Source: Fidelibacterota bacterium (GTDB lineage Bacteria; Fidelibacterota; SORT01). Taken from it: DNA of 33,372 nt. Both the position numbers and the translations under genes were made by a program. Positions 10,279 to 24,484 of the stretch are shown piece after piece (the stretch's first letter is position 1; every line of letters begins with the position of its first letter). The stretch spans positions 1 to 33,372 of the forward strand of contig JACZYG010000019.1 in NCBI GenBank assembly GCA_022571215.1, read 5' to 3'. The notes beneath the pieces were generated by a model, which saw only the letters and a list, made by a program, of their open reading frames with translations, was not told the DNA's origin and ran no database searches.

Positions 10279-10429
10279 GCATTGTATCAAGAGTAATATA
10301 ACCAAAAATAGACACACAATGTGGCACAATGCGCGCTAAATATCCGACCTTATTTCACAGGAATGTTTAGTGCAATAATACCAATTAACTCAGAGTTGAT
10401 TGGATATAACAATAACGGAGGTACATATT

Positions 10430-12481
10430 ATGAAGAGTAAGCTACAAAGCGTACTGGTAGTTACACTTACAGTCGTGTTTGTCGGGCTTTTTGCTTCACC
10501 ACTATACGCTCAAACCGCAAATGATACTCTTCGCTTTCAGGCGAAGAACACCGGTTTCGGTTTAACTGACATTAACAATGACAACTTGTTCGAGATCCTG
10601 ATGTTTGATGATAACACGGGGTTTGTCCGCGTGTTTCAATCCACAGGCGAGGATAAGTATGAATTTGTGAAACAGTGGCAGCCGGCACCGTTAAGACCGG
10701 ACGGCATAAAAGCAGATTTCGGTGGCGTAAAGAGTCAGATACCGGAAGCGGACTTTGACGGCGACGGTGTTAAGGAGCTCTATCTTTCCGATACGAAAGG
10801 TCACTCGTGGATTGTCACACCCAATGGGACTGTTAACACAATGTTCGACGACGTTAACTGGACAATGCTTCATGACTGGAAGCTGACAAACGTATTCAAC
10901 GAAGGCGGCGAGGCCCGCGGAAACCTCATAGGCGACGTTGACGGTGACGGCAAGCCGGACATTTATCTTGCCGGTAATAACTTCGGCTCGATTCTGGACA
11001 TGGAGTGGGACGGCGGTACTGTGGACGATTTGGGCACTGGTTTTGCTGTTACATCAATAACAAATGATGCTCCAGTCACAGGCAAGGCGCGTGTTGTGAT
11101 GGCGACTAGTGCTGATGCCGCTCTTTTCGCGGCAGGGGATAAGATTCAACTCAGCACCGGTACGGCAACAGAGGAAGATTACGTAGTGGATGCTGTGGCG
11201 GCGCCGAATGTTGACCTCACAACCGTCGTAACAACCACGGCGAACACCACGCTTAAAAAGTTTATTTATGCTGCCGATGTGACTAGCGGGGATGATTACA
11301 GTACATACGTAATCGCGATAGACAAGAACGATGATATTGAAAACGGTCGTTTTGCCCGTCCGGCCAACATACAACTGACTGATATGGACGGTGACGGACT
11401 CAAGGAGATCCTGGCGATTGTTCCATGGTCGGGCTCTAACCCAGTAGAGAACTTGTTGGGATTGTATCTATTCGAGCACCCTGATTCAATAGCCAATAAG
11501 GGCGTCAACACCGCCCTGACCAAGGTATGGCATGAGGCATCTGATGCTATTTTCGCGCGAGGCTATATTATAACGGGTGGCGGTACCTTAAGAGACGAGG
11601 TAGACATTGATAAAGACGGCTTGGGAGAGTTTTTGACGTATGAGCAAGATGGCGGTCAGCATATCGTTTATCTCTTTGAGGCTGTCGATGAAACGAGTAA
11701 TGACTACCAGATCGTCTGGCAGTATCAATTTGGCAGCAGCACCGGGCAGCTCGGCATAGCAGGAAACGAGCGTGGTATCATGGTGACGGATATAGACGGA
11801 GATGGCGATAAGGAGATTGTAGTCATCGTTGATTCGGTGCATCCTGATTCCACAGATGGTTTCGATGCGGGTCATATATTCGAGTGGGACGGTACTGGTA
11901 CTAGTAAGGCTGATCATAATGGTTTACCCTCCACGCCCACGGCGACGTTTGACCCTCCCAGAGATGCCGTTCAAAAAGTCTCGTTGGAGAATAACTCCGT
12001 GACATTCGATGTGGACAATGACGGCAGGGACGAACTTATACTGACCCATCGCGGCGGTAACGGCATATTTCTGTCAATCATAGAGCTTACCGCGACTGAA
12101 GCTGAATTAACCGCTGGAAATGTTACGATGAAAGTTGAGTTTGTCGATGAAGTCGTCTTTCTTCCGGTAGGTATAGACGATAGTCGGTTAGGTCAGACAC
12201 CCAGGGAATTCTCATTGGGCCAGAACTATCCCAACCCCTTCAACCCTTCGACCAACATCACGTATGATCTTCCTGCGTCAGTTACTGTTTCACTGAACAT
12301 ATACGATATATTAGGCAGGAATGTGATAACATTGGTCAATGAACAACAGAACGCCGGTTCGTATATTGTTGAATGGAATGGAAAGAACTCGAGCGGAATA
12401 CAGGTAACAAGCGGAATCTATTTCTACCGTTTGGAAGCGGGTAGAAACGCATTCACGAAAAAGATGTTACTGCTCAAGTAA
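10430..12481 (+). CDS. Secreted FG-GAP/VCBS repeat protein with T9SS-type C-terminal sorting domain
   Basis: A 683-residue exported protein. The start is fixed by GGAGG 8 bases before ATG 10430 and by the signal peptide (VLVVTLTVVFVGLFASPLYA). The mature part carries about seven acidic repeats of the FG-GAP/VCBS integrin-propeller type: DINNDNLFEI, DFDGDGVKELYL, DVDGDGKPDIYL, DMDGDGLKEIL, DIDKDGLGEF, DIDGDGDKEIV, DVDNDGRDELIL. These D-x-D-x-D-G loops normally bind calcium, one per blade. The last 85 residues are a type A sorting domain with NYPNPFNPST, then IYDILGR, SGIYFYRLEAG and a basic end KKMLLLK. It has its own promoter candidate and terminator, so it is probably monocistronic. Its role could be surface adhesion or binding; none is proven by the sequence. 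Confidence 0.88.
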   Translation: MKSKLQSVLVVTLTVVFVGLFASPLYAQTANDTLRFQAKNTGFGLTDINNDNLFEILMFDDNTGFVRVFQSTGEDKYEFVKQWQPAPLRPDGIKADFGGVKSQIPEADFDGDGVKELYLSDTKGHSWIVTPNGTVNTMFDDVNWTMLHDWKLTNVFNEGGEARGNLIGDVDGDGKPDIYLAGNNFGSILDMEWDGGTVDDLGTGFAVTSITNDAPVTGKARVVMATSADAALFAAGDKIQLSTGTATEEDYVVDAVAAPNVDLTTVVTTTANTTLKKFIYAADVTSGDDYSTYVIAIDKNDDIENGRFARPANIQLTDMDGDGLKEILAIVPWSGSNPVENLLGLYLFEHPDSIANKGVNTALTKVWHEASDAIFARGYIITGGGTLRDEVDIDKDGLGEFLTYEQDGGQHIVYLFEAVDETSNDYQIVWQYQFGSSTGQLGIAGNERGIMVTDIDGDGDKEIVVIVDSVHPDSTDGFDAGHIFEWDGTGTSKADHNGLPSTPTATFDPPRDAVQKVSLENNSVTFDVDNDGRDELILTHRGGNGIFLSIIELTATEAELTAGNVTMKVEFVDEVVFLPVGIDDSRLGQTPREFSLGQNYPNPFNPSTNITYDLPASVTVSLNIYDILGRNVITLVNEQQNAGSYIVEWNGKNSSGIQVTSGIYFYRLEAGRNAFTKKMLLLK

Positions 12482-12882: not shown

Positions 12883-12956
12883 TCCGAGAAATATTTACAC
12901 AAAGTTTCCTTAAGTAAAAGTGACAGCCGGTTAAATTTTTAAAAGGTGTGCTTGAG

Positions 12957-14540
12957 ATGAATATTGATCTACTAATGGTAATTGTCTACTTCGTGATTAT
13001 TTTCCTGATTGGAATATATAAAAGCGGTAAACAGAAAAAGGATGCCACCACTTATTTCCTGAGCGGAAGGAATCTTCGCTGGCCTGCAATAGCGATGTCC
13101 ACGATAGCAACCAACATTCAAGCAGGTCATTTTATAGGTATGGGTGGGGCTGCTTACGTTTACGGTTTGGCATGGGCAAATTTTGAGATTGACGCGGTCT
13201 TTGGTATTCTTCTCGCCGCTTTCTTTTTCGTTCCCCTCTATCTGCGTATGAAAATATTTACCATTACTCAGTTCTTTGAGGCAAAGTTCGGCAGTTTCGT
13301 AGCTCTGAGTTATTCCATCTTTTCTCTAATTCTGTTTGGAATTGTCTACATGGGGGGAGCGCTCTACTGGGGAAGCATCGCGATTAACGGTATTTTCGCG
13401 GATCAATTATCAGCGCTTCATTCGGACCCGGTGATCAGACTCTACATCATTGTCGTTTTCATGGGAGTGTTTTCATCTCTGTATGTTTATTTCGGAGGTC
13501 TCGCGGCAGTAGTCCGTACCGACATCATTCAGTTGATTACGTTGTTAGGGGGCGCATTAATAGTTCTGGTATTAGCGGTGAAAGCGATCGGCGGATTCTC
13601 TGAATTGTATAATCCTGCCAATTATCCTGATATCACAACCGGAAGGGATCATTTGATGCACCTGTTTCTGCCTATCGATCACCCGAAAGTTCCCTGGACA
13701 GCCGTATTCTTCGGCATGGCTCTCTTGCACATCCAATATTGGGGCGCAAACCAGGTGATTTTGCAAAGGTCTCTTGCCGCCCGTTCCCTGAAGGATGCTC
13801 AGATCGGTTTGATTGTCGGCGGTTTTTTAAAGTATGTTTTTGCGGCTTTGATAATCATACCTCCAATCGCTCTGGTAGGTTTTCATAAACCCCTTGCTGA
13901 TCCAGATCAGGCATACATTGTATTGGTAAACACGCTGTTGCAGCCTGGCGTTCGAGGTTTCGTGATTATGGGTCTATTCGCTTCCCTGATGAGTACGGTT
14001 GATTCCATTATAAATTCGGTCAGCACCCTTTTTACGTTTGATATTTACAAAAGACTCGTAAATAGTAACGCGTCGGATGAAAAGTTGATGCAGATAGGAA
14101 AGAATTCTATTCCGTTCATTGCCCTTTCCGGAATGATGTTCGCATTTTCATTGATTTATATAAAATATCACGGATTCAATTTCCCTCTTTCACTCTTAAC
14201 GAACGAAATATCTTACCATATAAAGGCAGGTTATACGATACTGGTATTAGCCGCGGTGTTCTGCACCAGAGCGCCGAGGAAACTTGTTGTGTACGTTTTT
14301 GTCGGTAGCGCAGTTGTATCGCTCATATTCAGATATCTCCTATTCCCGGATATGAACTGGTTAAACCGGACCGGATGGGTCATCGTATTAGGTTATTCGA
14401 TATTGGCGATCGCGTCATATATTTCTCCGGGAGAGAAGATGAAATGGAAGGATCTGTTAATTGTAGATTCAAGAAAGGTTGGGTATCTTGGCGTGGTTCT
14501 TGCCGTATCATTAGTCGTGTTGAACGTGATCTTCAGATAA
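12957..14540 (+). CDS. Sodium:solute symporter, SGLT-like; probable inositol importer
   Basis: An inner-membrane Na+-coupled transporter of the SSS (SLC5) family, 527 residues, with about 13-14 hydrophobic segments, the usual number. Typical family pieces are YFLSGRNLRWPAIAMS near residue 30, ATNIQAGHFIGMGG next to it, and GANQVILQRSLAARSLKDAQIG (residues about 263-284) in the place where sugar and inositol cotransporters have a similar QR-x-L-A motif. The ATG at 12957 is preferred over the GTG at 12948 because AAAGGTG sits 8 bases before it. It opens a cluster with IolD, IolE and IolB, so myo-inositol or a related cyclitol is the likely substrate. Specificity is inferred from context. Confidence 0.85.
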   Translation: MNIDLLMVIVYFVIIFLIGIYKSGKQKKDATTYFLSGRNLRWPAIAMSTIATNIQAGHFIGMGGAAYVYGLAWANFEIDAVFGILLAAFFFVPLYLRMKIFTITQFFEAKFGSFVALSYSIFSLILFGIVYMGGALYWGSIAINGIFADQLSALHSDPVIRLYIIVVFMGVFSSLYVYFGGLAAVVRTDIIQLITLLGGALIVLVLAVKAIGGFSELYNPANYPDITTGRDHLMHLFLPIDHPKVPWTAVFFGMALLHIQYWGANQVILQRSLAARSLKDAQIGLIVGGFLKYVFAALIIIPPIALVGFHKPLADPDQAYIVLVNTLLQPGVRGFVIMGLFASLMSTVDSIINSVSTLFTFDIYKRLVNSNASDEKLMQIGKNSIPFIALSGMMFAFSLIYIKYHGFNFPLSLLTNEISYHIKAGYTILVLAAVFCTRAPRKLVVYVFVGSAVVSLIFRYLLFPDMNWLNRTGWVIVLGYSILAIASYISPGEKMKWKDLLIVDSRKVGYLGVVLAVSLVVLNVIFR

Positions 14541-14556
14541 ACAGGGAATAATTTCA

Positions 14557-15315
14557 ATGAAAATAATATTTGCCGGAACAGGAGACGGACGGGGCATCCC
14601 CGCAATAGGCTGTGAGTGTAAACGGTGTATGATTGCAAGAAAAGAGAAAGGGAAAAACCGTCGCCGACGGGTATGCGTCATCATAAAAAATAGATCGGGA
14701 ACGATTATACTCGATACGCCGATCGACATCGGACGGATTGTGAATAAATACAAGATATTCGATATAGCCGCAATATTTCTTTCTCACAAACATTGGGATC
14801 ACATCGGAGGAATAACCGAATTCGAATGGTGGGACGCAGGAAAAATCCCCGTTTACGGGAATATGTCCGCGCTTGCAAATTTCGAAACAACTGAAAGACT
14901 GTATGACAGGTGTAAATTCCATGTCATGCATGACCGGGAATCAGTTAAAATAGGGCATATAAAATTTAAAGCTTTCAAGGTGAATCATAAAGTCCCCACC
15001 CATGGCTTGGTCATAACGGAAGATAATAAACGCATAGTACATTTTAGTGACAGCGTGGAATTATCATTAAATGATTTTGAGAAAAGACAGGTGAAAAAGG
15101 CGAACCTCGTCATATTCCATACGCCGGGCTATGACGGCGGTACAGACCACATTGACGTTGTCAGCGTAATGAAAATTGCGAAGAAACATCCGAATACCTC
15201 CTTTATTATCTCTCATATCGGGCATAATAATCTACCTCACGAAGAATTAGAGGAACATTTCGCTTCTTATAAAAATCTACGCGTCGCATATGATGGACTG
15301 GAGATTAAAATCTAA
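14557..15315 (+). CDS. PhnP-like metallo-beta-lactamase-fold cyclic phosphodiesterase
   Basis: A 252-residue metallo-hydrolase closest to PhnP, the enzyme that opens 5-phosphoribosyl 1,2-cyclic phosphate in phosphonate degradation. Shared features are GTGDGRGIPAIGCECKRC at 7-24, with Cys19, Cys21 and Cys24 for the structural zinc; the metal motif H77-K-H-W-D81-H82; NHKVPTHG near 146-153; FSDS; and a late ISHIGH histidine motif. Length equals PhnP (about 250). No other phosphonate gene is near. In an inositol cluster a natural guess is a different cyclic phosphate, such as inositol 1,2-cyclic phosphate from phosphatidylinositol breakdown, but this is speculation. It lies 16 bases after the symporter stop. 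Confidence 0.8.
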   Translation: MKIIFAGTGDGRGIPAIGCECKRCMIARKEKGKNRRRRVCVIIKNRSGTIILDTPIDIGRIVNKYKIFDIAAIFLSHKHWDHIGGITEFEWWDAGKIPVYGNMSALANFETTERLYDRCKFHVMHDRESVKIGHIKFKAFKVNHKVPTHGLVITEDNKRIVHFSDSVELSLNDFEKRQVKKANLVIFHTPGYDGGTDHIDVVSVMKIAKKHPNTSFIISHIGHNNLPHEELEEHFASYKNLRVAYDGLEIKI

Positions 15316-15417
15316 TATGCGCGACAATGTGTAAATACCCACGATCCATAATTCTTCATTTCAATCAATTAAGCGTACTAATTCTTCTTAACAAACGCAG
15401 GAGTCCCCGTTACGGTT

Positions 15418-16305
15418 ATGCATATGAACTTTGATGTCGTTATATTAGGGCATATCGCAAAAGATAAATTAATTATTGATGGGGAGGAAATAGATGCTTT
15501 GGGCGGGGCTGTTTATTATGGCGCCATGGCTTTATCAAAATTGAATTATTCCGCCGCGGTTATCACTCTTCTCGCCAAGGATGATTTCTATTACCTCGAT
15601 GTTATGAGAAAAGACGGTATTGAAGTATTTCCTCACGAAACTGAAGTGACCAGTGGAATCAAAAATACGTACTTTGGGGAAAACCATGATAAAAGAATAT
15701 GTGAACCAATTGCGTTCGCAGGCGAATTTAAAGCGGAGCATATACCGGATATCACGACCAAAATATTCCATATAGGACCAATAATGGCAGGCGAAGTATC
15801 ACTGGATTTAATCGAGCATATAACCTCTCGATTTGAAAGAGTGTCTCTCGACCTGCAAGGCGTATTACGCGTTAGAGAGGGCAAGGAATTGGTATTCGTT
15901 GATTGGCCGGATAAGGAGCGCGGATTAAAAGGGATTCATACGGTTAAAGCTGATTCCGTTGAAGCAGAAGTAATTACGGGTGAAAAGGACATCGCAAAGG
16001 CAGCTCGAATTATCGCTGAATGGGGACCCCGTGAAGTGCTCATCACCCATAAATACGGCATGTTGGTCTATGCTGAAGGCGAAGTCTATGAAGCGCCGTT
16101 CACTCCTCAATCTATAAAAGGACGTACCGGTCGCGGTGATACAGCGATGGTCTCGTATCTTGCGAGCAGATTAACAACATCGCCCGGGGAGTCGTGCAGC
16201 TTCGCCGCTGCCGTAACTTCCTTGAAGTTGGAAAAAGAGGGACCTTTTGACCGTACGTCTCCGGATGTTACGGCAAAGCTAAAAGCTGACTATTCTTTCG
16301 CATAA
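15418..16305 (+). CDS. PfkB-family sugar kinase of the inositol cluster
   Basis: A 295-residue ribokinase/PfkB-fold kinase. The N-terminal glycine motif is seen as DALGGAVYYGAMALSKL (about 27-43) and the ATP/anion-hole motif as GRTGRGDTAMVSYL (about 235-248) with Asp241 as catalytic base; Arg replaces the usual Ala of GAGD. In the Bacillus pathway the kinase IolC, also PfkB-type, phosphorylates 2-deoxy-5-keto-gluconate. This protein is shorter than IolC, and its start (GHIAKDKLIIDGEEIDALGG) recalls archaeal inositol/other sugar kinases. So it may be the IolC functional replacement or an inositol kinase. A second ATG at 15424 is equally possible as start; no strong Shine-Dalgarno is seen. It is 8 bases from the next gene. 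Confidence 0.8.
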   Translation: MHMNFDVVILGHIAKDKLIIDGEEIDALGGAVYYGAMALSKLNYSAAVITLLAKDDFYYLDVMRKDGIEVFPHETEVTSGIKNTYFGENHDKRICEPIAFAGEFKAEHIPDITTKIFHIGPIMAGEVSLDLIEHITSRFERVSLDLQGVLRVREGKELVFVDWPDKERGLKGIHTVKADSVEAEVITGEKDIAKAARIIAEWGPREVLITHKYGMLVYAEGEVYEAPFTPQSIKGRTGRGDTAMVSYLASRLTTSPGESCSFAAAVTSLKLEKEGPFDRTSPDVTAKLKADYSFA

Positions 16306-16313
16306 GAAATATC

Positions 16314-17288
16314 ATGAATGATATAACAATCGGCATCATCGGTACAGGAGCGATAGCAAGAACCCATGCCGGGATATTGCAGCGGAATGATGCCGTGAAA
16401 TTGGGTTCCGTATACGATGTCCGGAAGGACAGCGGGGAAAGATTTGCCGCAGATTTTGGAATGCAAACACTCTCCAGCGCTGAGGACGTCATAGCCGATT
16501 CTGACGCTGTATATGTTACAGTTCCCAATAAGTTCCATGTCGAAATGACACTCAAAGTATTGAGTCAGGGTAAACATGTCTTTTGTGAAAAACCGTTTGC
16601 CCTCAATCTTACCGATGCCCGGATGATAGTTGATGCGGTTGAAAAGAAAGGGGTCGTCTACCAGCTTGGATTCAGCAGGAGACTCGCTCCGGTCTACAAA
16701 AAAATGAAAGAGCTCATAACAAGCGGAGAGCTCAAGCCGAAGTCCTTTAATATAAAAATGAACCGCGGGGAGCTGCAGGTACCGCCGTGGACAAGCGATT
16801 CTAAAATCACAGGCGGATTCCTTTTTGAATCTACGCTTCATCTTATTGACATGACGCGTTACCTGTTTGGCGAGGTGAAAGAGGTCACGGCTGTCGGGTC
16901 AAAATCGGTATATCCGTGTGTGGATGATTTTTCCATGATATTCGAAATGGAAAATGGCATCCACGGCGTTTTTTCATCAAGCGCTCACACAACATGGATA
17001 TTCCCGTTTGAACGGGTGGAAATTTATGGAGATCACGCTTCGATCGTGAGTGATGAGATGGAAGCTGTTTCTTATTGTATGGACTTAAATACGCCTGTGG
17101 AAAAACTAAACTTTTCGACGCTTCCTGTTGATGAGCGTTGGGGTTTCACAGAGGAGAATGAGATATTTGTGGATAGGCTTTTAGGTCGGGACTCCGGGGA
17201 AAACGACCTTGTGGCTACGCATCTTGACGGCTATAAGAACGTTGAAATCATGGAAGATATATATGAAAAGGTGGGATTGGGCCGATGA
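16314..17288 (+). CDS. Gfo/Idh/MocA family oxidoreductase, probable inositol dehydrogenase
   Basis: A 324-residue NAD(P)-dependent dehydrogenase. The Rossmann motif GIIGTGAIARTHAG lies at 7-20, the family EKP motif as CEKPFAL at about 90-96, and a substrate-domain segment GGFLFESTLHLIDMTRYLFGEV (residues about 166-187) supplies the catalytic-site histidine. IolG, which oxidises myo-inositol to 2-keto-myo-inositol (2-inosose), belongs to this family and is similar in length (about 340). Because IolE, the enzyme that uses inosose, is encoded downstream, an inositol 2-dehydrogenase role is the best guess, but the family also includes scyllo-inositol and other sugar dehydrogenases, so no symbol is given. 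Confidence 0.82.
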   Translation: MNDITIGIIGTGAIARTHAGILQRNDAVKLGSVYDVRKDSGERFAADFGMQTLSSAEDVIADSDAVYVTVPNKFHVEMTLKVLSQGKHVFCEKPFALNLTDARMIVDAVEKKGVVYQLGFSRRLAPVYKKMKELITSGELKPKSFNIKMNRGELQVPPWTSDSKITGGFLFESTLHLIDMTRYLFGEVKEVTAVGSKSVYPCVDDFSMIFEMENGIHGVFSSSAHTTWIFPFERVEIYGDHASIVSDEMEAVSYCMDLNTPVEKLNFSTLPVDERWGFTEENEIFVDRLLGRDSGENDLVATHLDGYKNVEIMEDIYEKVGLGR

Positions 17289-17372
17289 ACATTACTGATA
17301 ATTAAATTTTTTAATTGTAATTTTAAATAAGTTGTTGAACCCAAATAAATCAGACAAGATCGAGAAAATATT

Positions 17373-19238
17373 ATGATAGAAACTATCAGGTTGACCACTG
17401 CTCAGGCAATTATTCGTTTTTTAAAGGCTCAGTGGATTGAGTTAGATGGTGATAGCCACCCGTTTTTTGCAGGAATGTGGGGAATATTCGGTCATGGAAA
17501 TGTTGCGGGTATTGGGCAGGCGCTTGAGCAGGATGGGGAGTTCACTCATTACCTTCCCCGGAATGAACAAGCGATGGTGCATATTGCCGCTGCCTTTGCC
17601 AAGCAGAATCGCCGACTGAGAGCGTTTGCCTGTACTTCTTCAGTAGGTCCGGGCGCGACCAATATGGTAACAGCAGCGGCGGGCGCTACCATCAATAGAG
17701 TTCCCGTGCTTCTGCTGCCAGGTGACACGTTCTCCAGAAGGAATGTCGGACCGGTTCTTCAACAGTTGGAGTATCCTCTCGGTCAGGACATTTCAGTCAA
17801 TGATTGCCTAAGACCCGTGAGCCGTTATTGGGACCGAATAAATCGGCCCGAGCAAATTCTTACGTCTTTTCCGGAGGCGGTACGGATTCTTACAGATCCT
17901 TCCGAGACCGGGGCGGTGACAATATCTCTACCGCAAGACGTGCAGGCAGAGGCATATGATTTTCCTGAATCGTTTTTCGAAAAGAGGATTCACTACGTTC
18001 CGAGGGCGATTCCGGATCCTACCTTGTTACTTCGCGCAATGGAGTTGATAAAGAATTCCACGAAACCCTTGATCATCGCGGGCGGCGGTATGTTATACTC
18101 CGGCGCGGAGGAAGCATTGGCGGCGTTCTGTGAATCCACCGGGATACCGGTCGGTGAAACTCAAGCGGGGAAGGGTTCTCTAAATTGGAAACATGATAAG
18201 AACCTGCAGGGAATTGGGGCTACCGGAACTTCAGCCGCCAATCGAATTGCGAAAGAGGCTGACCTCGTGATCGCCGTAGGCACCCGTCTATCAGATTTTA
18301 CCACAGCTTCAAAAACACAATTTCAGAATCCCGATGTGAAATTCATCAGTATCAACGTATCTCCGTTCGATGCGGGTAAACATTCATCACTGATGCTGGT
18401 CGGCGACGCGAAGGCGACACTGGAAAGGCTGAACCAAATGCTGGCGGAGAAAGCTTATTCCGTTTCGCAGGATTACGAAGAGACCATTGGAAAATTAATC
18501 AACGAATGGCATAAAGAGAGTGATCGAATATTCGCGCCGGGTAACGGCGGAAAGGTAAGTCAAGGTGAAATAATCGGTTTATTGAACGCGTTCATGACAG
18601 ACAAGGACAGTATAGTTTGCGCCGCGGGGAGTCTTCCGGGGGATTTGCACAAACTGTGGCGGGCGGAAAACGGTGACCAGTACCACATGGAATACGGATA
18701 TTCCTGTATGGGTTATGAAATTGCCGGTGGTTTGGGCGTGAAGTTTGCAAAAGAAGAGGGTGACGTTTTCGTTATGGTCGGAGACGGTTCTTATCTCATG
18801 ATGCATACAGAAATTGTTACTTCTCTTCAGGAAGATAAGAAGCTTATAATTATACTGGTGGATAACCATGGTTATGGAAGTATAGATGGCTTGTCAAAAA
18901 ATCTCGGCAGCCTCGGATTCGGAAATAAGTTACGCCATCGTGATCCGAAAACCGGAAAACTGACGGGCGAATCTCTTAAAATAGATTTTGTTGAGAATGC
19001 CGTCTCCCTCGGCGCGGAAGGTATTAGAGTTGGAACGGGAGAAGAGTTCAATTCCGCGCTGAAAAAAGCAAGGGAAAATGAAAAAACCACGGCAATAATC
19101 ATTGAACTCGAACCATCTGACCTCCCCGGCTACGATTCATGGTGGGACGTTCCGATAGCAGAAGTTTCAGAAATGCCGACGGTACAGGAAGCGCGAAAGG
19201 AATATGAGGAAAAAGTAAAGAAAGAACGGTATTTTTAG
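17373..19238 (+). CDS. iolD: 3D-(3,5/4)-trihydroxycyclohexane-1,2-dione acylhydrolase (decyclizing)
   Basis: A thiamine-diphosphate enzyme of 621 residues (family usual about 635) that opens the diketo-cyclitol ring to 5-deoxy-glucuronate. The N-terminal Pyr domain carries the catalytic glutamate in PRNEQAMVH (Glu65), followed by ACTSSVGPGATNMVTAAAGAT (positions about 86-106). The central domain spans about 215-345 and the C-terminal PP domain contains the Mg/ThDP motif VGDGSYLMMH (about 468-477) ending in the DN pair of LVDNHGYGS. The opening TTAQAIIRFLKAQ and the GMWGIFGHGNVAGIGQAL segment are specific to IolD rather than to acetolactate synthase. Its stop overlaps the GTG of the next gene by one base. 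An 84-base AT-rich gap with a weak palindrome (near 17300-17320) precedes it. Confidence 0.95.
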   Translation: MIETIRLTTAQAIIRFLKAQWIELDGDSHPFFAGMWGIFGHGNVAGIGQALEQDGEFTHYLPRNEQAMVHIAAAFAKQNRRLRAFACTSSVGPGATNMVTAAAGATINRVPVLLLPGDTFSRRNVGPVLQQLEYPLGQDISVNDCLRPVSRYWDRINRPEQILTSFPEAVRILTDPSETGAVTISLPQDVQAEAYDFPESFFEKRIHYVPRAIPDPTLLLRAMELIKNSTKPLIIAGGGMLYSGAEEALAAFCESTGIPVGETQAGKGSLNWKHDKNLQGIGATGTSAANRIAKEADLVIAVGTRLSDFTTASKTQFQNPDVKFISINVSPFDAGKHSSLMLVGDAKATLERLNQMLAEKAYSVSQDYEETIGKLINEWHKESDRIFAPGNGGKVSQGEIIGLLNAFMTDKDSIVCAAGSLPGDLHKLWRAENGDQYHMEYGYSCMGYEIAGGLGVKFAKEEGDVFVMVGDGSYLMMHTEIVTSLQEDKKLIIILVDNHGYGSIDGLSKNLGSLGFGNKLRHRDPKTGKLTGESLKIDFVENAVSLGAEGIRVGTGEEFNSALKKARENEKTTAIIIELEPSDLPGYDSWWDVPIAEVSEMPTVQEARKEYEEKVKKERYF

Positions 19239-20131
19239 TGAGTCAGCAAAAAGTAAAATTGGGAATCGCGCCAATCAATTGGTCTAATGATGACCTGCTT
19301 GAGCTTGGCGGTGATATTCCACTCGAAAGATGTCTATCCGAGATGCAGGAAGCGGGATATGCGGGAACAGAATTCGGAAATAAGTTTCCGACTGAATCTG
19401 CCGTCCTTAAACCGTTGCTCTCTAAATATGGATTATCATTAGCCTCTAAGTGGCATACTACTTATTTTGTTGCGAACAACGATTTGGAAGAAGAGCTGAC
19501 GAGATTAAAAGAGAGCCTGGAGTTTCTTTCAGCGATGGGAACAGATGTAATAAATATTGCGGAGTGCAGCGGAACTGTTCATGGTGATAGGAGTAAGCCG
19601 TTATCAAACAAACCGGTGTTCGATGACAGGGAATGGGACCGTCTCATTATCGGATTAAAAAAAACCGGAGAAATATGCGACAGTTATGGAATTAAGGTTG
19701 CTTACCATCACCATATGGGGACAGGTGTTCAGACTGAAGACGAGATTGACCGATTAATGTCCTCGACTGTCAATGAGAAGGTACAGCTGTGCGCGGATAC
19801 TGGTCATATGCTATTTGCGGGGTTTGACCCGCTGCCGGTTTACGAAAGATATATAGATCGTATTGCTCATATTCATTTGAAGGATATTCGCGAGAGCGTT
19901 ATGACTCTGATGTTGGATGATGACGCCTCCTTTCTGGATTCGGTTATAGAAGGAGTATTTACGGTGCCGGGAGACGGAATGATCGATTTTAAACCGGTTT
20001 TCGACGTCGTTAAAGAGTCGAACTATAATGGGTGGATGATAGTAGAAGCTGAAGGAGACCCGTCAAAATCCAACCCGCTTCAATATTCCAAAATTGCGAA
20101 ACGGTATATAAGCGGAATGATAAACATATAA
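19238..20131 (+). CDS. iolE: Myo-inosose-2 dehydratase
   Basis: A 297-residue TIM-barrel protein of the xylose-isomerase-like AP-endonuclease-2 superfamily; IolE proteins are about 298 residues. It dehydrates 2-keto-myo-inositol to the trihydroxycyclohexane-dione used by IolD. Diagnostic pieces are GIAPINWSNDD near the start, EMQEAGYAGTEFGNKFP (about 35-51), AYHHHMGTGVQT (about 154-165), CADTGHMLFAG and HIHLKDIR (metal-binding histidines and aspartate), and VPGDGMIDF. It begins with GTG, sharing one base with the iolD stop (TAGTG), so translation is coupled to iolD. Confidence 0.94.
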   Translation: MSQQKVKLGIAPINWSNDDLLELGGDIPLERCLSEMQEAGYAGTEFGNKFPTESAVLKPLLSKYGLSLASKWHTTYFVANNDLEEELTRLKESLEFLSAMGTDVINIAECSGTVHGDRSKPLSNKPVFDDREWDRLIIGLKKTGEICDSYGIKVAYHHHMGTGVQTEDEIDRLMSSTVNEKVQLCADTGHMLFAGFDPLPVYERYIDRIAHIHLKDIRESVMTLMLDDDASFLDSVIEGVFTVPGDGMIDFKPVFDVVKESNYNGWMIVEAEGDPSKSNPLQYSKIAKRYISGMINI

Positions 20132-20155
20132 ATTATAAAATTGAGAAGGCGATAA

Positions 20156-21217
20156 ATGGATAAAACAAAAATGCAGATTACCAGCGACTTCGGGAGCGAC
20201 TGGTGGAATGATTCGTGTGATCTGAAAGAATTACAAGATGCCGTTGATCAGGGCGCCGTAGGAGCCACCTCCAATCCGGTGATAATTAAGATGGTAGTTG
20301 AAAATAAGCCTGATGAGTGGCTGCCTGTCATAGACAGGCTTATATCAGATAGTCCGAATGGAACCGAAGATGATATCACGTGGGCTTTGGTAGATGATAT
20401 CGGAACTCGCGCAGCAAAAATACTCGAACCGGTCTATCATAAAACAAACGGAGAGAAGGGAAAGCTCTCACTTCAAGTGAGTCCGAAGTACTATCCGGAC
20501 CCGGAGCGAATGGTGGAACAAGCGAAGCATTTAGCCGGATTAGCGCCAAACATAGCCATTAAATGTCCGGCAATTGCTCCCGGACTCGAGGCTATCGAAG
20601 AGTTAGTAAGCCAGGGCATTACCATCAACGCCACGGTCAGTTTCTCGGTCCCTCAGGCGGTCAGATGCGCGGAGGCGGTTGAAAGGGGTTGGAAGAGAGC
20701 GGAAGAAAACGGAGTTGATACTTCCAAGCTCTCGCCCTATGTGACTATTATGGTTGGACGGATTGACGATCACCTCAGGGGGATCGCGAAAGATGAAAGT
20801 ATTACGATTGATCCTGATTACCTGGATTGGGCGGGTGTGGCAATCTTTAAAAGAGCCTACCAGATTTTTAATGAGCGTGGATACAGGAGTAAACTCCTCT
20901 CGGCGGCTTTCAGATGTCATATGCACTGGTCGGAGCTGGTGGGGGGTAACGTAGTCATCAGCATGCCGTATGAATGGTGGAATAAGTTTAACGAATCCGA
21001 TGTCGAGGTGAAGAATAGGATGGAGCAGGATGTCGATAAGAAAATCATTGATCAGCTTCAGGAGAAGTTTGTTGATTTCAGGAGGGCTTATGAGGAAGAC
21101 GGAATGAAAGTTGATGAATTCCTACAGTTCGGCCCGTCAAATCGCACTCTAAGACAATTTCTGAGTGGCTATGACGGTCTGGCTGGTATCGTACGTGAAC
21201 GGATGCTCGCTAGCTGA
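20156..21217 (+). CDS. Transaldolase-family protein in the inositol cluster
   Basis: A 353-residue TIM-barrel aldolase of the transaldolase family. Signatures: GATSNPVII (36-44, the usual G-x-T-T/S-N-P), the Schiff-base lysine context NIAIKCPAIAPGLEAIEEL with Lys136, and GITINATVSFS, the strand that follows in all transaldolases. It lies between iolE and iolB in a cluster without IolJ, the class II aldolase that normally splits the phosphorylated deoxyketogluconate into dihydroxyacetone phosphate and malonate semialdehyde. A transaldolase/FSA-like enzyme might perform that cleavage or transfer the three-carbon unit. This is inferred from position. GAGAAGG a few bases before the ATG supports the start. 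Confidence 0.85.
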   Translation: MDKTKMQITSDFGSDWWNDSCDLKELQDAVDQGAVGATSNPVIIKMVVENKPDEWLPVIDRLISDSPNGTEDDITWALVDDIGTRAAKILEPVYHKTNGEKGKLSLQVSPKYYPDPERMVEQAKHLAGLAPNIAIKCPAIAPGLEAIEELVSQGITINATVSFSVPQAVRCAEAVERGWKRAEENGVDTSKLSPYVTIMVGRIDDHLRGIAKDESITIDPDYLDWAGVAIFKRAYQIFNERGYRSKLLSAAFRCHMHWSELVGGNVVISMPYEWWNKFNESDVEVKNRMEQDVDKKIIDQLQEKFVDFRRAYEEDGMKVDEFLQFGPSNRTLRQFLSGYDGLAGIVRERMLAS

Positions 21218-21226
21218 TGGTGATGT

Positions 21227-21994
21227 ATGAGTCTGGTTAAAAAATTTAGGGATAAGAAATTTGCGGCGGGCTACAACGAATACTTGACGCCTGACGACGA
21301 TACAGGATTGAGATTTCAAATCTTGCAAATGGACGCGAATTCGGAAGAGACCATCCTGTCGAACGACTGTGAAACCGCGCTTTTGGTCATAGAAGGGAAG
21401 GGAACTTTAATCTATGGTGATCAAACAATAGAATTCGACAGGAACAACTGGATCGAGCAAAACCCTGTAGCGGCTCATTTTCCCGCGGGAGATGAAATCC
21501 GGATTATGGCAGAGAAAGCTTCCCGTTTAGCGGTGATAAGTACTTTGAACGGCTCCCGATTTGACGGTAAAATTTATCCTCCCGAAGAAGTAGACGTTGA
21601 ACGAAGAGGAGAAGACATACTTGACGGAACGTGTTATCGGTTGGTTCGTTTGGTCTTTGACAGAACGATTGCGCCGGAGAACGCGAAATTAGTTTTAGGT
21701 GAGGTACTGAATTTCCCGGGCAAGTGGAGCAGCTACCCGCCGCATCACCATGTTCAGCCGGAAATTTATTATTACGAATTCTCTCCGGATGAAGGGTATG
21801 GTCATGGCGAGCTCGGTGAGGATGTCTTCAATATCAAACATCAAGACCTGTTAAAGATAACAGATTCTAAGGATCACAGCCAGGTGTCGGCGCCGGGGTA
21901 CCATATGTATTATATCTGGGCGATCAGGCATCTCGATGATTCTCCGTATACAGGATTTGAATTCAGCAAGCCGTACGATAAGTTATTAGAGTAA
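21227..21994 (+). CDS. iolB: 5-deoxy-glucuronate isomerase
   Basis: A 255-residue double-cupin enzyme (IolB family usual about 270) that converts 5-deoxy-glucuronate to 2-deoxy-5-keto-gluconate. The C-terminal cupin carries the metal site SSYPPHHHVQPEIYYYE, with the HHH at about 173-175 and Glu a few residues later. HMYYIWAIRH near 226-235 is another conserved family segment. It begins 9 bases after the transaldolase stop. With IolE, IolD and a dehydrogenase it covers the four steps from myo-inositol to 2-deoxy-5-keto-gluconate. Confidence 0.95.
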   Translation: MSLVKKFRDKKFAAGYNEYLTPDDDTGLRFQILQMDANSEETILSNDCETALLVIEGKGTLIYGDQTIEFDRNNWIEQNPVAAHFPAGDEIRIMAEKASRLAVISTLNGSRFDGKIYPPEEVDVERRGEDILDGTCYRLVRLVFDRTIAPENAKLVLGEVLNFPGKWSSYPPHHHVQPEIYYYEFSPDEGYGHGELGEDVFNIKHQDLLKITDSKDHSQVSAPGYHMYYIWAIRHLDDSPYTGFEFSKPYDKLLE

Positions 21995-22040
21995 GTAATC
22001 CTAATATATCATTATTGGTGAGTTGGAAGGAAATTTTATC

Positions 22041-23435
22041 ATGAACTTTCCAAAATTGAGCTGCCGGAAATCGCTGGCTATGTCACTGTTCTTATTATTA
22101 ACCAGCTGCGCGAAAGAATCTGAAAAGCCGGCAAACGGCGTTATTGCGGTTGTCAACGGCGTGTCTATCACAAAAAGAGAGATGGTAAGACGAATTGAGC
22201 TTACTCCCGTGCCCGGGTTTCATCGGCATAAAGACAGGAGTAAACGTGTGCTTGACATGTTGATTGACGAAATAACATTGAGTCAATGGGCAAAAGCGCA
22301 GGGTTTCGAGGATTCACCTGAATACAAGGAAGCAATTAAATTCATAGAACAGCAAGCAATGATTCGTGAACTTTTCTTTACGGAGATACGAAGCAATGCA
22401 GTGCCGGATTCACAAAAAATCGATTTAGCGCTGAGAAAGTCAATGCTGCGTCTGACTGTTCAAACGATGGTGACAGAAAATAAAGAGATTGCCGATAAAT
22501 GGCGCAAACGCATGGACTCCGGAAAAACGTTTAAGGATTTGACAGAAGATTATAAGGGCGATCCGGCAATTAAGATTAAAGATTTGTCGCTTCACTGGGG
22601 GGACGGCTCCGTTCCTATTCAAGTAGAAAATGTCGCTTACCAGACAGCGGTAGGCGAGTCGTCAGACGTTATAAAACTAGCTAACGCCTATGCTGTTCTC
22701 TATGTTGAAAATATCGCTCAAGATGTTTTTCTGACTCCTTATGCTGTCAACATGAAACAATTGCAGATTAAGGAGGTGCTTCGAGCGAGGAAAGAAACCG
22801 TTTTGGCGAATGAATATGTATCAAGACTCATGAAACCTTTATCAGTAGAACAGATGGGTGACGGTCTCGAAGAAGTTGTAAAATTTATTAAGAAAAGAGT
22901 GGAACTGAATGAGAATAACGGGTTTCCATTGGCGCAAATTATGAACGAGGAATTGACGCTGTCCGATGACTTTGATCTTTCTTTACCTGTGATAAAGACG
23001 CCCGATTTTGTGTGGACCGGCAATGACGTAACCGTTCTACTCAGGAATTATAATTATCCGATAGATAAAAGTAGCAGCGCCTCTCTTCGCAAAACAATGA
23101 CGGAATTTTTAAAAAGCACTGTCACCGATTATTATCTCGCGGCGCGAGCCGGGCAGAACGGTTTACAGTCCGCTGAAAGAGTAACAGAGGATGTTCATAT
23201 ATGGAGCCGGTATTTTTTAAGTTTTATAGGATTAAGCGCTTTTTCCGACAGCGATTCCATCCTGAACGATAAAGAAGCGATTGTCAGGCATGTCAAGGCT
23301 CTTCGAGAGAAGGCGGCAATTGAGATCAATCACGATTTCTTGGAAAGTATTAAGCTAACGGGTATTCCCATGGTCACCGTCTGGAAGAACCGTTTTAATA
23401 AGCACTTAGCTGCCCCCCCATTGGTGAAATACTAA
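22041..23435 (+). CDS. SurA/parvulin-like peptidyl-prolyl isomerase lipoprotein
   Basis: A 464-residue predicted lipoprotein. ATG 22041 is chosen because GGAAGGAAA lies about 8 bases before it; the upstream in-frame TTG at 22023 lacks such a site. The leader ends in a lipobox LLLTSC (Cys about 25), then a SurA/PrsA-like N-terminal domain (AVVNGVSITKREMVRRIEL; VLDMLIDEITLSQWAKAQGF). A degenerate parvulin domain (about 140-230) includes WRKRMDSGKTFKDLTEDY and LHWGDGSVP. SurA-like proteins fold exported outer-membrane proteins in the periplasm. The isomerase core looks diverged, so a chaperone role without catalysis is possible. It follows iolB by about 45 bases, yet its function fits better with the surrounding exported proteins. 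Confidence 0.68.
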   Translation: MNFPKLSCRKSLAMSLFLLLTSCAKESEKPANGVIAVVNGVSITKREMVRRIELTPVPGFHRHKDRSKRVLDMLIDEITLSQWAKAQGFEDSPEYKEAIKFIEQQAMIRELFFTEIRSNAVPDSQKIDLALRKSMLRLTVQTMVTENKEIADKWRKRMDSGKTFKDLTEDYKGDPAIKIKDLSLHWGDGSVPIQVENVAYQTAVGESSDVIKLANAYAVLYVENIAQDVFLTPYAVNMKQLQIKEVLRARKETVLANEYVSRLMKPLSVEQMGDGLEEVVKFIKKRVELNENNGFPLAQIMNEELTLSDDFDLSLPVIKTPDFVWTGNDVTVLLRNYNYPIDKSSSASLRKTMTEFLKSTVTDYYLAARAGQNGLQSAERVTEDVHIWSRYFLSFIGLSAFSDSDSILNDKEAIVRHVKALREKAAIEINHDFLESIKLTGIPMVTVWKNRFNKHLAAPPLVKY

Positions 23436-23665: not shown

Positions 23666-24484
23666 ATGAATACGAAAAAGGTTATGAAGGTTGCCTCGTC
23701 ATTATTATTGGCGCTGTTGATTTCTTCCACCGCTCATGCGCAGTATCAGGTGGGCGATGCTGTATCTGATTTCACCTTGCAAAATCACGATGGCGGCACG
23801 ATTACTCTTTTCGATTATAGCGGAGATGTTCTGCTCCTTACATTCTGGTGGTTCGCCTGTCCTCCCTGTCAGCAGGAGGCGCCGGTCATACAGACGGAAC
23901 TGTGGGAGAAGTATAAAGACAGAAATTTTCAAGTGTTATCTATCGGTTTCAGGGAAGAGCTGGACGCGGCGAATCTCTGGGTGGATCTTTATTTAATTAC
24001 GCATTTGGTCTTGATAGATGAAGGAAGCGTATTTGAAAGCTATAGCGGTTCTTCGGCATTTTCTGCCTTTCCGCTCAACGCAATCGTCGGCGCTGACGGT
24101 CGACTATTATATTCTGAAATTGCCTTTGACCTTGAGACGTTAGACGGGATTATAGAAAGTAATACCATAGTTGTGTCTGTTGATGATGAACCGGCGAATA
24201 TACCCGATAAACTAAGACTTCATCCCGCGTATCCTAATCCATTTAATCCTTCTACTACGATATCCTTCGACCTCGACGTTCGCTCGTCCCTCAGACTGAA
24301 AATCTTCGATATGCTCGGCAGGGAAGTCATCACACTTTTTCAAGGTACGCTTGATCGTGGAAATCATTCTTTCAAATGGAACGGTAGGAACAAAGACGGG
24401 AAGCAAGTATCATCGGGAGTCTATTTTTCGCAGCTCCAGGCAGGAGACTTGCTTAGGATAAGAAAGGTGACATTCATAAAATGA
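23666..24484 (+). CDS. Secreted thioredoxin-fold (TlpA/redoxin) protein with T9SS-type sorting domain
   Basis: A 272-residue exported redox protein. A signal peptide covers 1-26 (ends SSTAHAQ). The redoxin domain (about 28-165) has the active site FWWFACPPCQQEAP with Cys65 and Cys68, and the cis-proline region FSAFPLNAIVGADG. The last 85 residues are a type A sorting domain (AYPNPFNPSTTI, IFDMLGREV, SGVYFSQLQAG, RKVTFIK). TlpA-like proteins reduce or isomerise disulfides outside the cytoplasm; a sorting tail would place this one at the cell surface. The stop overlaps the next start (ATGA). Confidence 0.88.
   Translation: MNTKKVMKVASSLLLALLISSTAHAQYQVGDAVSDFTLQNHDGGTITLFDYSGDVLLLTFWWFACPPCQQEAPVIQTELWEKYKDRNFQVLSIGFREELDAANLWVDLYLITHLVLIDEGSVFESYSGSSAFSAFPLNAIVGADGRLLYSEIAFDLETLDGIIESNTIVVSVDDEPANIPDKLRLHPAYPNPFNPSTTISFDLDVRSSLRLKIFDMLGREVITLFQGTLDRGNHSFKWNGRNKDGKQVSSGVYFSQLQAGDLLRIRKVTFIK

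Follow-up and report, generated by a model that had tools for sequence, protein, structure and literature searches.

A transaldolase-fold protein that probably takes the place of two steps in a widespread variant of bacterial inositol breakdown

The stretch of DNA analyzed here (the window) is an entire 33-kb contig (C31; 33,372 nucleotides) of a Fidelibacterota bacterium with a 2.56-Mb, 97% complete genome, whose nearest named relatives are Candidatus Neomarinimicrobiota. Positions 12948 to 21994 hold eight open reading frames (ORFs), all running in one direction with intergenic gaps of at most about 103 nucleotides (Table 1). An initial annotation had recognized a symporter, a dehydrogenase, IolE, IolD, IolB, and a PfkB kinase in this cluster, and profile scores confirmed these genes, while a PhnP-like metallo-beta-lactamase missing from that list has to be added. 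IolD and IolE exceeded their curated cutoffs, whereas the dehydrogenase and the IolB-like protein scored below theirs and are family-level assignments. The position of the symporter is conserved in four other loci (L046 to L048 and L051). Between iolE and iolB lies, as annotated, a gene for a transaldolase-fold protein of 353 amino acids (TAL). Inositol breakdown here probably follows a widespread variant of the pathway, with one such enzyme standing in place of two steps.

Table 1. Genes of the inositol cluster in the window
Coordinates	Strand	Predicted product	Evidence
12948..14540	+	SSS-family Na+/solute symporter, probable inositol importer	PF00474 181 bits; TIGR00813 240 bits, above cutoff
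14557..15315	+	PhnP-like metallo-beta-lactamase-fold hydrolase	TIGR03307 PhnP 100 bits (cutoff 272); nearest solved structure PhnP 3g1p
15418..16305	+	TM0415-like PfkB kinase, predicted pyrophosphate-dependent inositol kinase	phmmer to 1vk4/TM0415; RTGRGD motif
16314..17288	+	IolG-like Gfo/Idh/MocA dehydrogenase (inositol to 2-keto-inositol)	TIGR04380 155 bits, best family, below cutoff of 355
17373..19238	+	iolD, trihydroxycyclohexane-1,2-dione hydrolase	TIGR04377 903 bits (cutoff 715)
19238..20131	+	iolE, inosose dehydratase	TIGR04379 401 bits (cutoff 290)
20156..21217	+	TAL, transaldolase-fold protein, 353 amino acids, proposed 5-keto-2-deoxygluconate aldolase/transaldolase	PF00923 152 bits
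21227..21994	+	iolB-like KduI/IolB protein, 5-deoxyglucuronate isomerase	PF04962 145 bits; TIGR04378 85 bits, below cutoff of 205

The classical inositol pathway has IolG, IolE, IolD, and IolB in common with the window and relies further on IolC and IolJ (Bacillus) or on IolC fused to DUF2090, a domain presumed to be the aldolase of Rhizobium-type IolC. The window has no IolC, IolJ, or DUF2090. As the initial annotation had noted, IolJ is absent from the cluster, and none was found in the rest of the 97% complete genome, whose single class II aldolase (PF01116) is a protein of 450 amino acids with family scores of 46 to 58 bits and no meaningful similarity to true IolJ. DUF2090 was found in none of the 36 genomes searched, namely, the window genome and 35 others, nearly all of them TAL carriers. 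Profile searches of the window genome returned no gene above the IolC cutoff. A hidden IolC elsewhere was rejected, the best candidate being a ribokinase-like gene that scores 61 bits and neighbors an MtnA-like gene. An MMSDH/IolA-type dehydrogenase (547 bits, above cutoff) is encoded outside the cluster, beside a nitrilase/ureidopropionase-like gene.

The PfkB kinase of the cluster had been expected to take the pathway to phosphorylated deoxyketogluconate, a role that did not hold up. Its score against the IolC profile TIGR04382 is 19.5 bits for a cutoff of 300, it has no BLAST similarity to Priestia IolC, and we rejected it as an IolC. Its nearest solved relative is TM0415 (PDB 1vk4), which phmmer matched over 278 amino acids, the whole length, with an E value of 1.5e-47. 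The TM0415 protein of Thermotoga maritima is a pyrophosphate-dependent myo-inositol 1-kinase that produces inositol 1-phosphate (PMC5931981). The window kinase resembles it in the RXGRGD motif (RTGRGD at residue 236, also present in 6/6 homologous clusters examined), in the retained inositol-contacting Asp, Asn, Gln, and Arg, and in four of the five donor-site residues read from the alignment, and differs at Met266, where it has Leu. Since this kinase is not an IolC, no visible gene of the cluster makes phosphorylated deoxyketogluconate. Unlike the window cluster, the Thermotoga inositol pathway is not known to include IolD, IolE, and IolB. The PhnP-like hydrolase and the kinase adjoin each other (14557 to 16305) and might, as pure speculation, act together in the salvage of cyclic inositol phosphate, in which the kinase would regain pyrophosphate by running in reverse.

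A scan of about 85,000 species genomes for TAL relatives yielded 283 encoded proteins. The best 80 of these 283 came from Neomarinimicrobiota, SAR324, Pseudomonadota, Lentisphaerota/Verrucomicrobiota, Acidobacteriota, Chloroflexota, Spirochaetota, Myxococcota, Bdellovibrionota, Elusimicrobiota, and Actinomycetota. In the window's phylum, TAL was present in 15/245 genomes including the window genome, with orthologues 58 to 91% identical, and the order IolD-IolE-TAL-IolB was constant wherever contigs allowed, except in G194, where about 17 kb separate KIN-IDH-IolD-IolE (KIN being the TM0415-like kinase) from TAL-IolB. In other phyla, TAL and the iol genes occur in shuffled orders, which speaks against their linkage being mere hitchhiking. 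Clear iolD, iolB, or iolE genes accompanied TAL in 58 nonduplicate loci, with IolB in 50, IolD in 49, IolE in 46, and IolA in 21 of them. The TAL subfamily thus recurs beside iolD, iolE, iolB, iolG, and iolA in about ten phyla, and the co-occurrence with iolD/E/B in the absence of iolJ that the initial annotation had envisaged was found across many of them.

No kinase or further aldolase family recurred widely among the neighbors of TAL; the recurring unassigned families that we tested comprised LacI regulators, parts of ABC transporters, permeases, inositol monophosphatase, and phosphatases. This bears on the possibility that TAL replaces IolJ only, cleaving 5-keto-2-deoxygluconate (DKG) 6-phosphate that either the clustered PfkB kinase or an unlinked sugar kinase would supply. 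Such a kinase does lie in the cluster and other PfkB kinases are encoded elsewhere in the genome, but the clustered one is TM0415-like, with its pyrophosphate motif and conserved inositol contacts, and most TAL loci of other phyla are without it (KIN in 4/58 iol-linked loci). Transaldolase chemistry also argues against it: donors normally end in a CH2OH that bears no phosphate, and we know of no transaldolase-fold enzyme with a dihydroxyacetone phosphate donor. We therefore regard a replacement of IolJ only as quite unlikely.

A replacement of both IolC and IolJ is what the distribution of these genes points to. IolC was found in 2/58 iol-linked TAL loci, compared with 10 of the 11 iolD loci without TAL, which came from plasmids (Fisher P of about 2e-9, taken as a description). 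The two TAL loci with IolC, one from Actinomycetota (L093) and one on a Clavibacter plasmid (L140), both also carry a DeoC-like aldolase. None of the 58 loci contained an IolJ homologue. At the level of whole genomes, IolC exceeded the cutoff in 4/67, 65 of which were TAL positive; in one of the four (G084), the gene was a fragment on a small contig, 66% identical to Rhizobium IolC, which may be contamination. Because counts that start from TAL are biased, a search was also seeded with IolD. Among 388 Verrucomicrobiota genomes it found IolD in eight, and all eight had TAL in the operon and none had IolC; in the five newly found loci, TAL stands beside IolA. Similarly, IolD and TAL occurred together in 14 genomes of the window's phylum, IolD without TAL in two, TAL without IolD in one, and neither in 228, the exceptions including contig ends (G108 and G136) and a relative (G192) of the genome with the split locus.

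We then considered the TAL protein itself. Its score exceeds the PF00923 cutoff of 27 bits and places it in the TAL_FSA superfamily, and its AlphaFold model (pLDDT 96) matched transaldolases in Foldseek with TM values of 0.83 to 0.85 at about 22% identity. It fell below the cutoffs of all NCBIfam transaldolase equivalogs, the best score being 123 bits against a cutoff of 367. By its sequence, TAL belongs to a distinct subfamily that separates from ordinary transaldolases in a tree, with iol-linked members spread across both main branches of the subfamily; the tree was built quickly and has several long branches, and its fine branching is not relied on. Residues were mapped onto TalB from the sequence alignment and the known TalB residues. 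Lys136, which the initial annotation had reported as intact, aligns with the Schiff-base lysine of solved transaldolases and is present in 104/104 subfamily members. Along with it, D19, N40, N158 (present in all members except two), T160, R202, and R253 are kept, K136 and these six corresponding to TalB K132 and D17, N35, N154, T156, R181, and R228. TAL thus has the fold and the active-site Lys, Asp, Asn, Thr, and Arg in common with the transaldolases of EC 2.2.1.2 (Corynebacterium 3r5e, Neisseria 3clm, and E. coli TalB), whose catalytic Glu96 and Phe178 are absent from the subfamily. Glu96 is replaced by Gln107, Phe178 by Met199, Ser176 by Thr197, and Ser226 by Ala251; Gln107, Met199, and Ala251 are fixed in 104/104 members, and Thr197 is nearly so. 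Two other proteins from the window's phylum (L031 and L032) have, unlike the TAL subfamily, Glu and Phe at the positions of TalB 96 and 178.

These features leave little room for an ordinary pentose-phosphate transaldolase that sits in the cluster by chance. It would share the fold and the Schiff-base lysine, but the genome encodes a separate TAL_FSA protein (217 amino acids, 215 bits), and both the fixed changes at two catalytic positions and the scores below every transaldolase equivalog cutoff make this reading very improbable.

The phosphate site of TalB consists of two arginines and one serine (PMC3962226); TAL keeps both arginines and has alanine for the serine, which suits a carboxylate or another anionic tail. 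FSA and the engineered TalB E96Q/F178Y (4rz6), both of which perform dihydroxyacetone (DHA) chemistry, likewise have Gln at the position of Glu96, and E96Q variants of TalB exist as crystal structures 4rz5 and 4rz6. This residue may favor release of DHA over its transfer, although the Met at position 178 differs from both known types. TAL is nevertheless not a typical FSA, which is recognized by Gln59 and Tyr131 in a chain of about 220 amino acids: it has the Gln, but Met for the Tyr, and its longer chain is of the length of the Corynebacterium and Neisseria transaldolases.

In ketose numbering, DKG reads CH2OH-CO-CHOH-CHOH-CH2-COOH, its C3 and C4 having the D-threo configuration of fructose and fructose-6-phosphate; the transaldolase fold naturally takes DHA as its donor unit. 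From the place of the TAL gene, its subfamily, fold, and conserved residues, its co-occurrence with iol genes, and the absence of IolC, IolJ, and DUF2090, we infer that TAL rather probably cleaves unphosphorylated DKG and so replaces both IolC and IolJ. Its substrate would be 5-dehydro-2-deoxy-D-gluconate, the product of IolB. The C3-C4 bond would be split with Lys136 forming the Schiff base, Asp19 acting as the base, and Arg202 and Arg253 holding the carboxylate, to give malonate semialdehyde and a lysine-bound DHA unit. The MMSDH/IolA-type dehydrogenase would then oxidize the malonate semialdehyde, which is also the product that IolA handles in the classical pathway, and the DHA unit would be either freed or moved to glyceraldehyde-3-phosphate to form fructose-6-phosphate. 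Such a cleavage would need no phosphorylation and so accounts for IolC and IolJ being missing together. The suggestion of the initial annotation that TAL is a nonhomologous replacement for the cleavage step is thus well supported by the co-occurrence and by the lack of iolJ and DUF2090, except that it assumed a phosphorylated substrate and IolC is generally lacking too; the idea pointed the right way but did not go far enough. We found no such route in the literature on inositol or DKG breakdown by a transaldolase or aldolase, or on TM0415, subscription papers being outside the search.

Several observations weigh against this proposal. Among 23 IolD-positive Spirochaetota genomes, seven have TAL only, five IolC only, one both, and ten neither, so that the exclusion of TAL and IolC is weak and nonsignificant there (P of 0.37). 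TAL coexists with IolC or with a complete classical operon in L140, L093, a SAR324 genome (G245), and two spirochetes (G278 and G1053), and 19 subfamily members lie on longer contigs with no iolD, iolB, or iolE within about 10 kb. Met199 replaces the Phe or Tyr of known enzymes, a change that bears on the proton relay. Many of the genomes are incomplete metagenome-assembled genomes, related genomes are not independent, and the P values are descriptions rather than strict tests.

The few TAL genomes with IolC or full classical operons, the members away from iol genes, and the Spirochaetota iol clusters devoid of TAL, IolC, and IolJ would also fit a side role for TAL, acting on dihydroxyacetone or sugar phosphates around inositol while an unrecognized enzyme encoded elsewhere performs the cleavage. 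Yet no other aldolase-type gene recurs in the clusters; TAL often adjoins IolA and was found in all eight IolD-positive Verrucomicrobiota genomes, and we consider a side role unlikely. Several members away from iolD, iolB, and iolE adjoin IolA-like genes (L076, L110, L111, and L135), and no dihydroxyacetone kinase was seen among the neighbors tested in TAL loci without iol genes.

Cleavage of unphosphorylated DKG by TAL has a parallel in sulfoglycolysis, where SqvA transfers DHA to glyceraldehyde-3-phosphate from sulfofructose, an unphosphorylated ketose with an anionic end (PMC12890257). This sulfofructose transaldolase (SF-TAL; PDB 8bc2 to 8bc4) of the sulfo-TAL pathway shares the transaldolase fold with TAL but belongs to another subfamily (about 218 versus 353 amino acids, with weak similarity) and to a different gene cluster and acts on a sulfonate-ended substrate. 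By analogy, we tentatively suggest, as a possible but doubtful extension, a kinase-free inositol route in about ten phyla, in which TAL would move DHA from unphosphorylated DKG to glyceraldehyde-3-phosphate, giving fructose-6-phosphate and malonate semialdehyde. If true, this route would parallel, for inositol, the sulfo-TAL type of sulfoglycolysis. TAL itself would be a natural addition to the DHA-dependent aldolases sought for biocatalysis. The iolJ gene is missing from several inositol users, where it is perhaps replaced by an as yet unannotated aldolase (PMC6741124). TAL is a widely distributed candidate for this gap and is predicted to make IolC dispensable as well, and the signature K136, Q107, M199, and A251 could serve to reannotate genomes now scored as incomplete for inositol use.

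A link to phytate is suggested in several Neomarinimicrobiota, where a phytase-like gene (identified in L058 and L059) and an ORF as large as a TonB receptor (L058, L059, L054, and L072) precede the IolD-IolE-TAL-IolB block and, in L055 and L059, a PhoD-like phosphatase gene comes after it. This arrangement is likely a phytate utilization cluster.

Four Spirochaetota loci (L220, L223, L228, and L229) have iolG-B-D-E operons without IolC, IolJ, or TAL, with type II GAPDH-like and PGK-like genes, recognized by eye, downstream. They possibly represent a third variant.

Relatives of TAL also occur in other settings. On a Shinella plasmid (L143, 7872 to 9092), a sister transaldolase with the same Gln/Thr/Met signature, in which the Ser is retained, clusters with acetoin-dehydrogenase-like subunits, a class II aldolase, and triose-phosphate isomerase. 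Two Chloroflexota loci (L103 and L094) encode divergent subfamily members of up to 600 amino acids away from iol genes, and the member in L103 bears a PEP-utilizing mobile domain.

Immediately 3' of iolB in the window (22023 to 23435) lies a gene for a 470-amino-acid lipoprotein-like protein with weak PPIC/rotamase similarity, found in the same place in seven related genomes (34 to 71% identity). The cluster is flanked on both sides (10400 to 12481 and 23666 to 24484) by genes for proteins with C-terminal NYPNPFNPST-type sorting domains.

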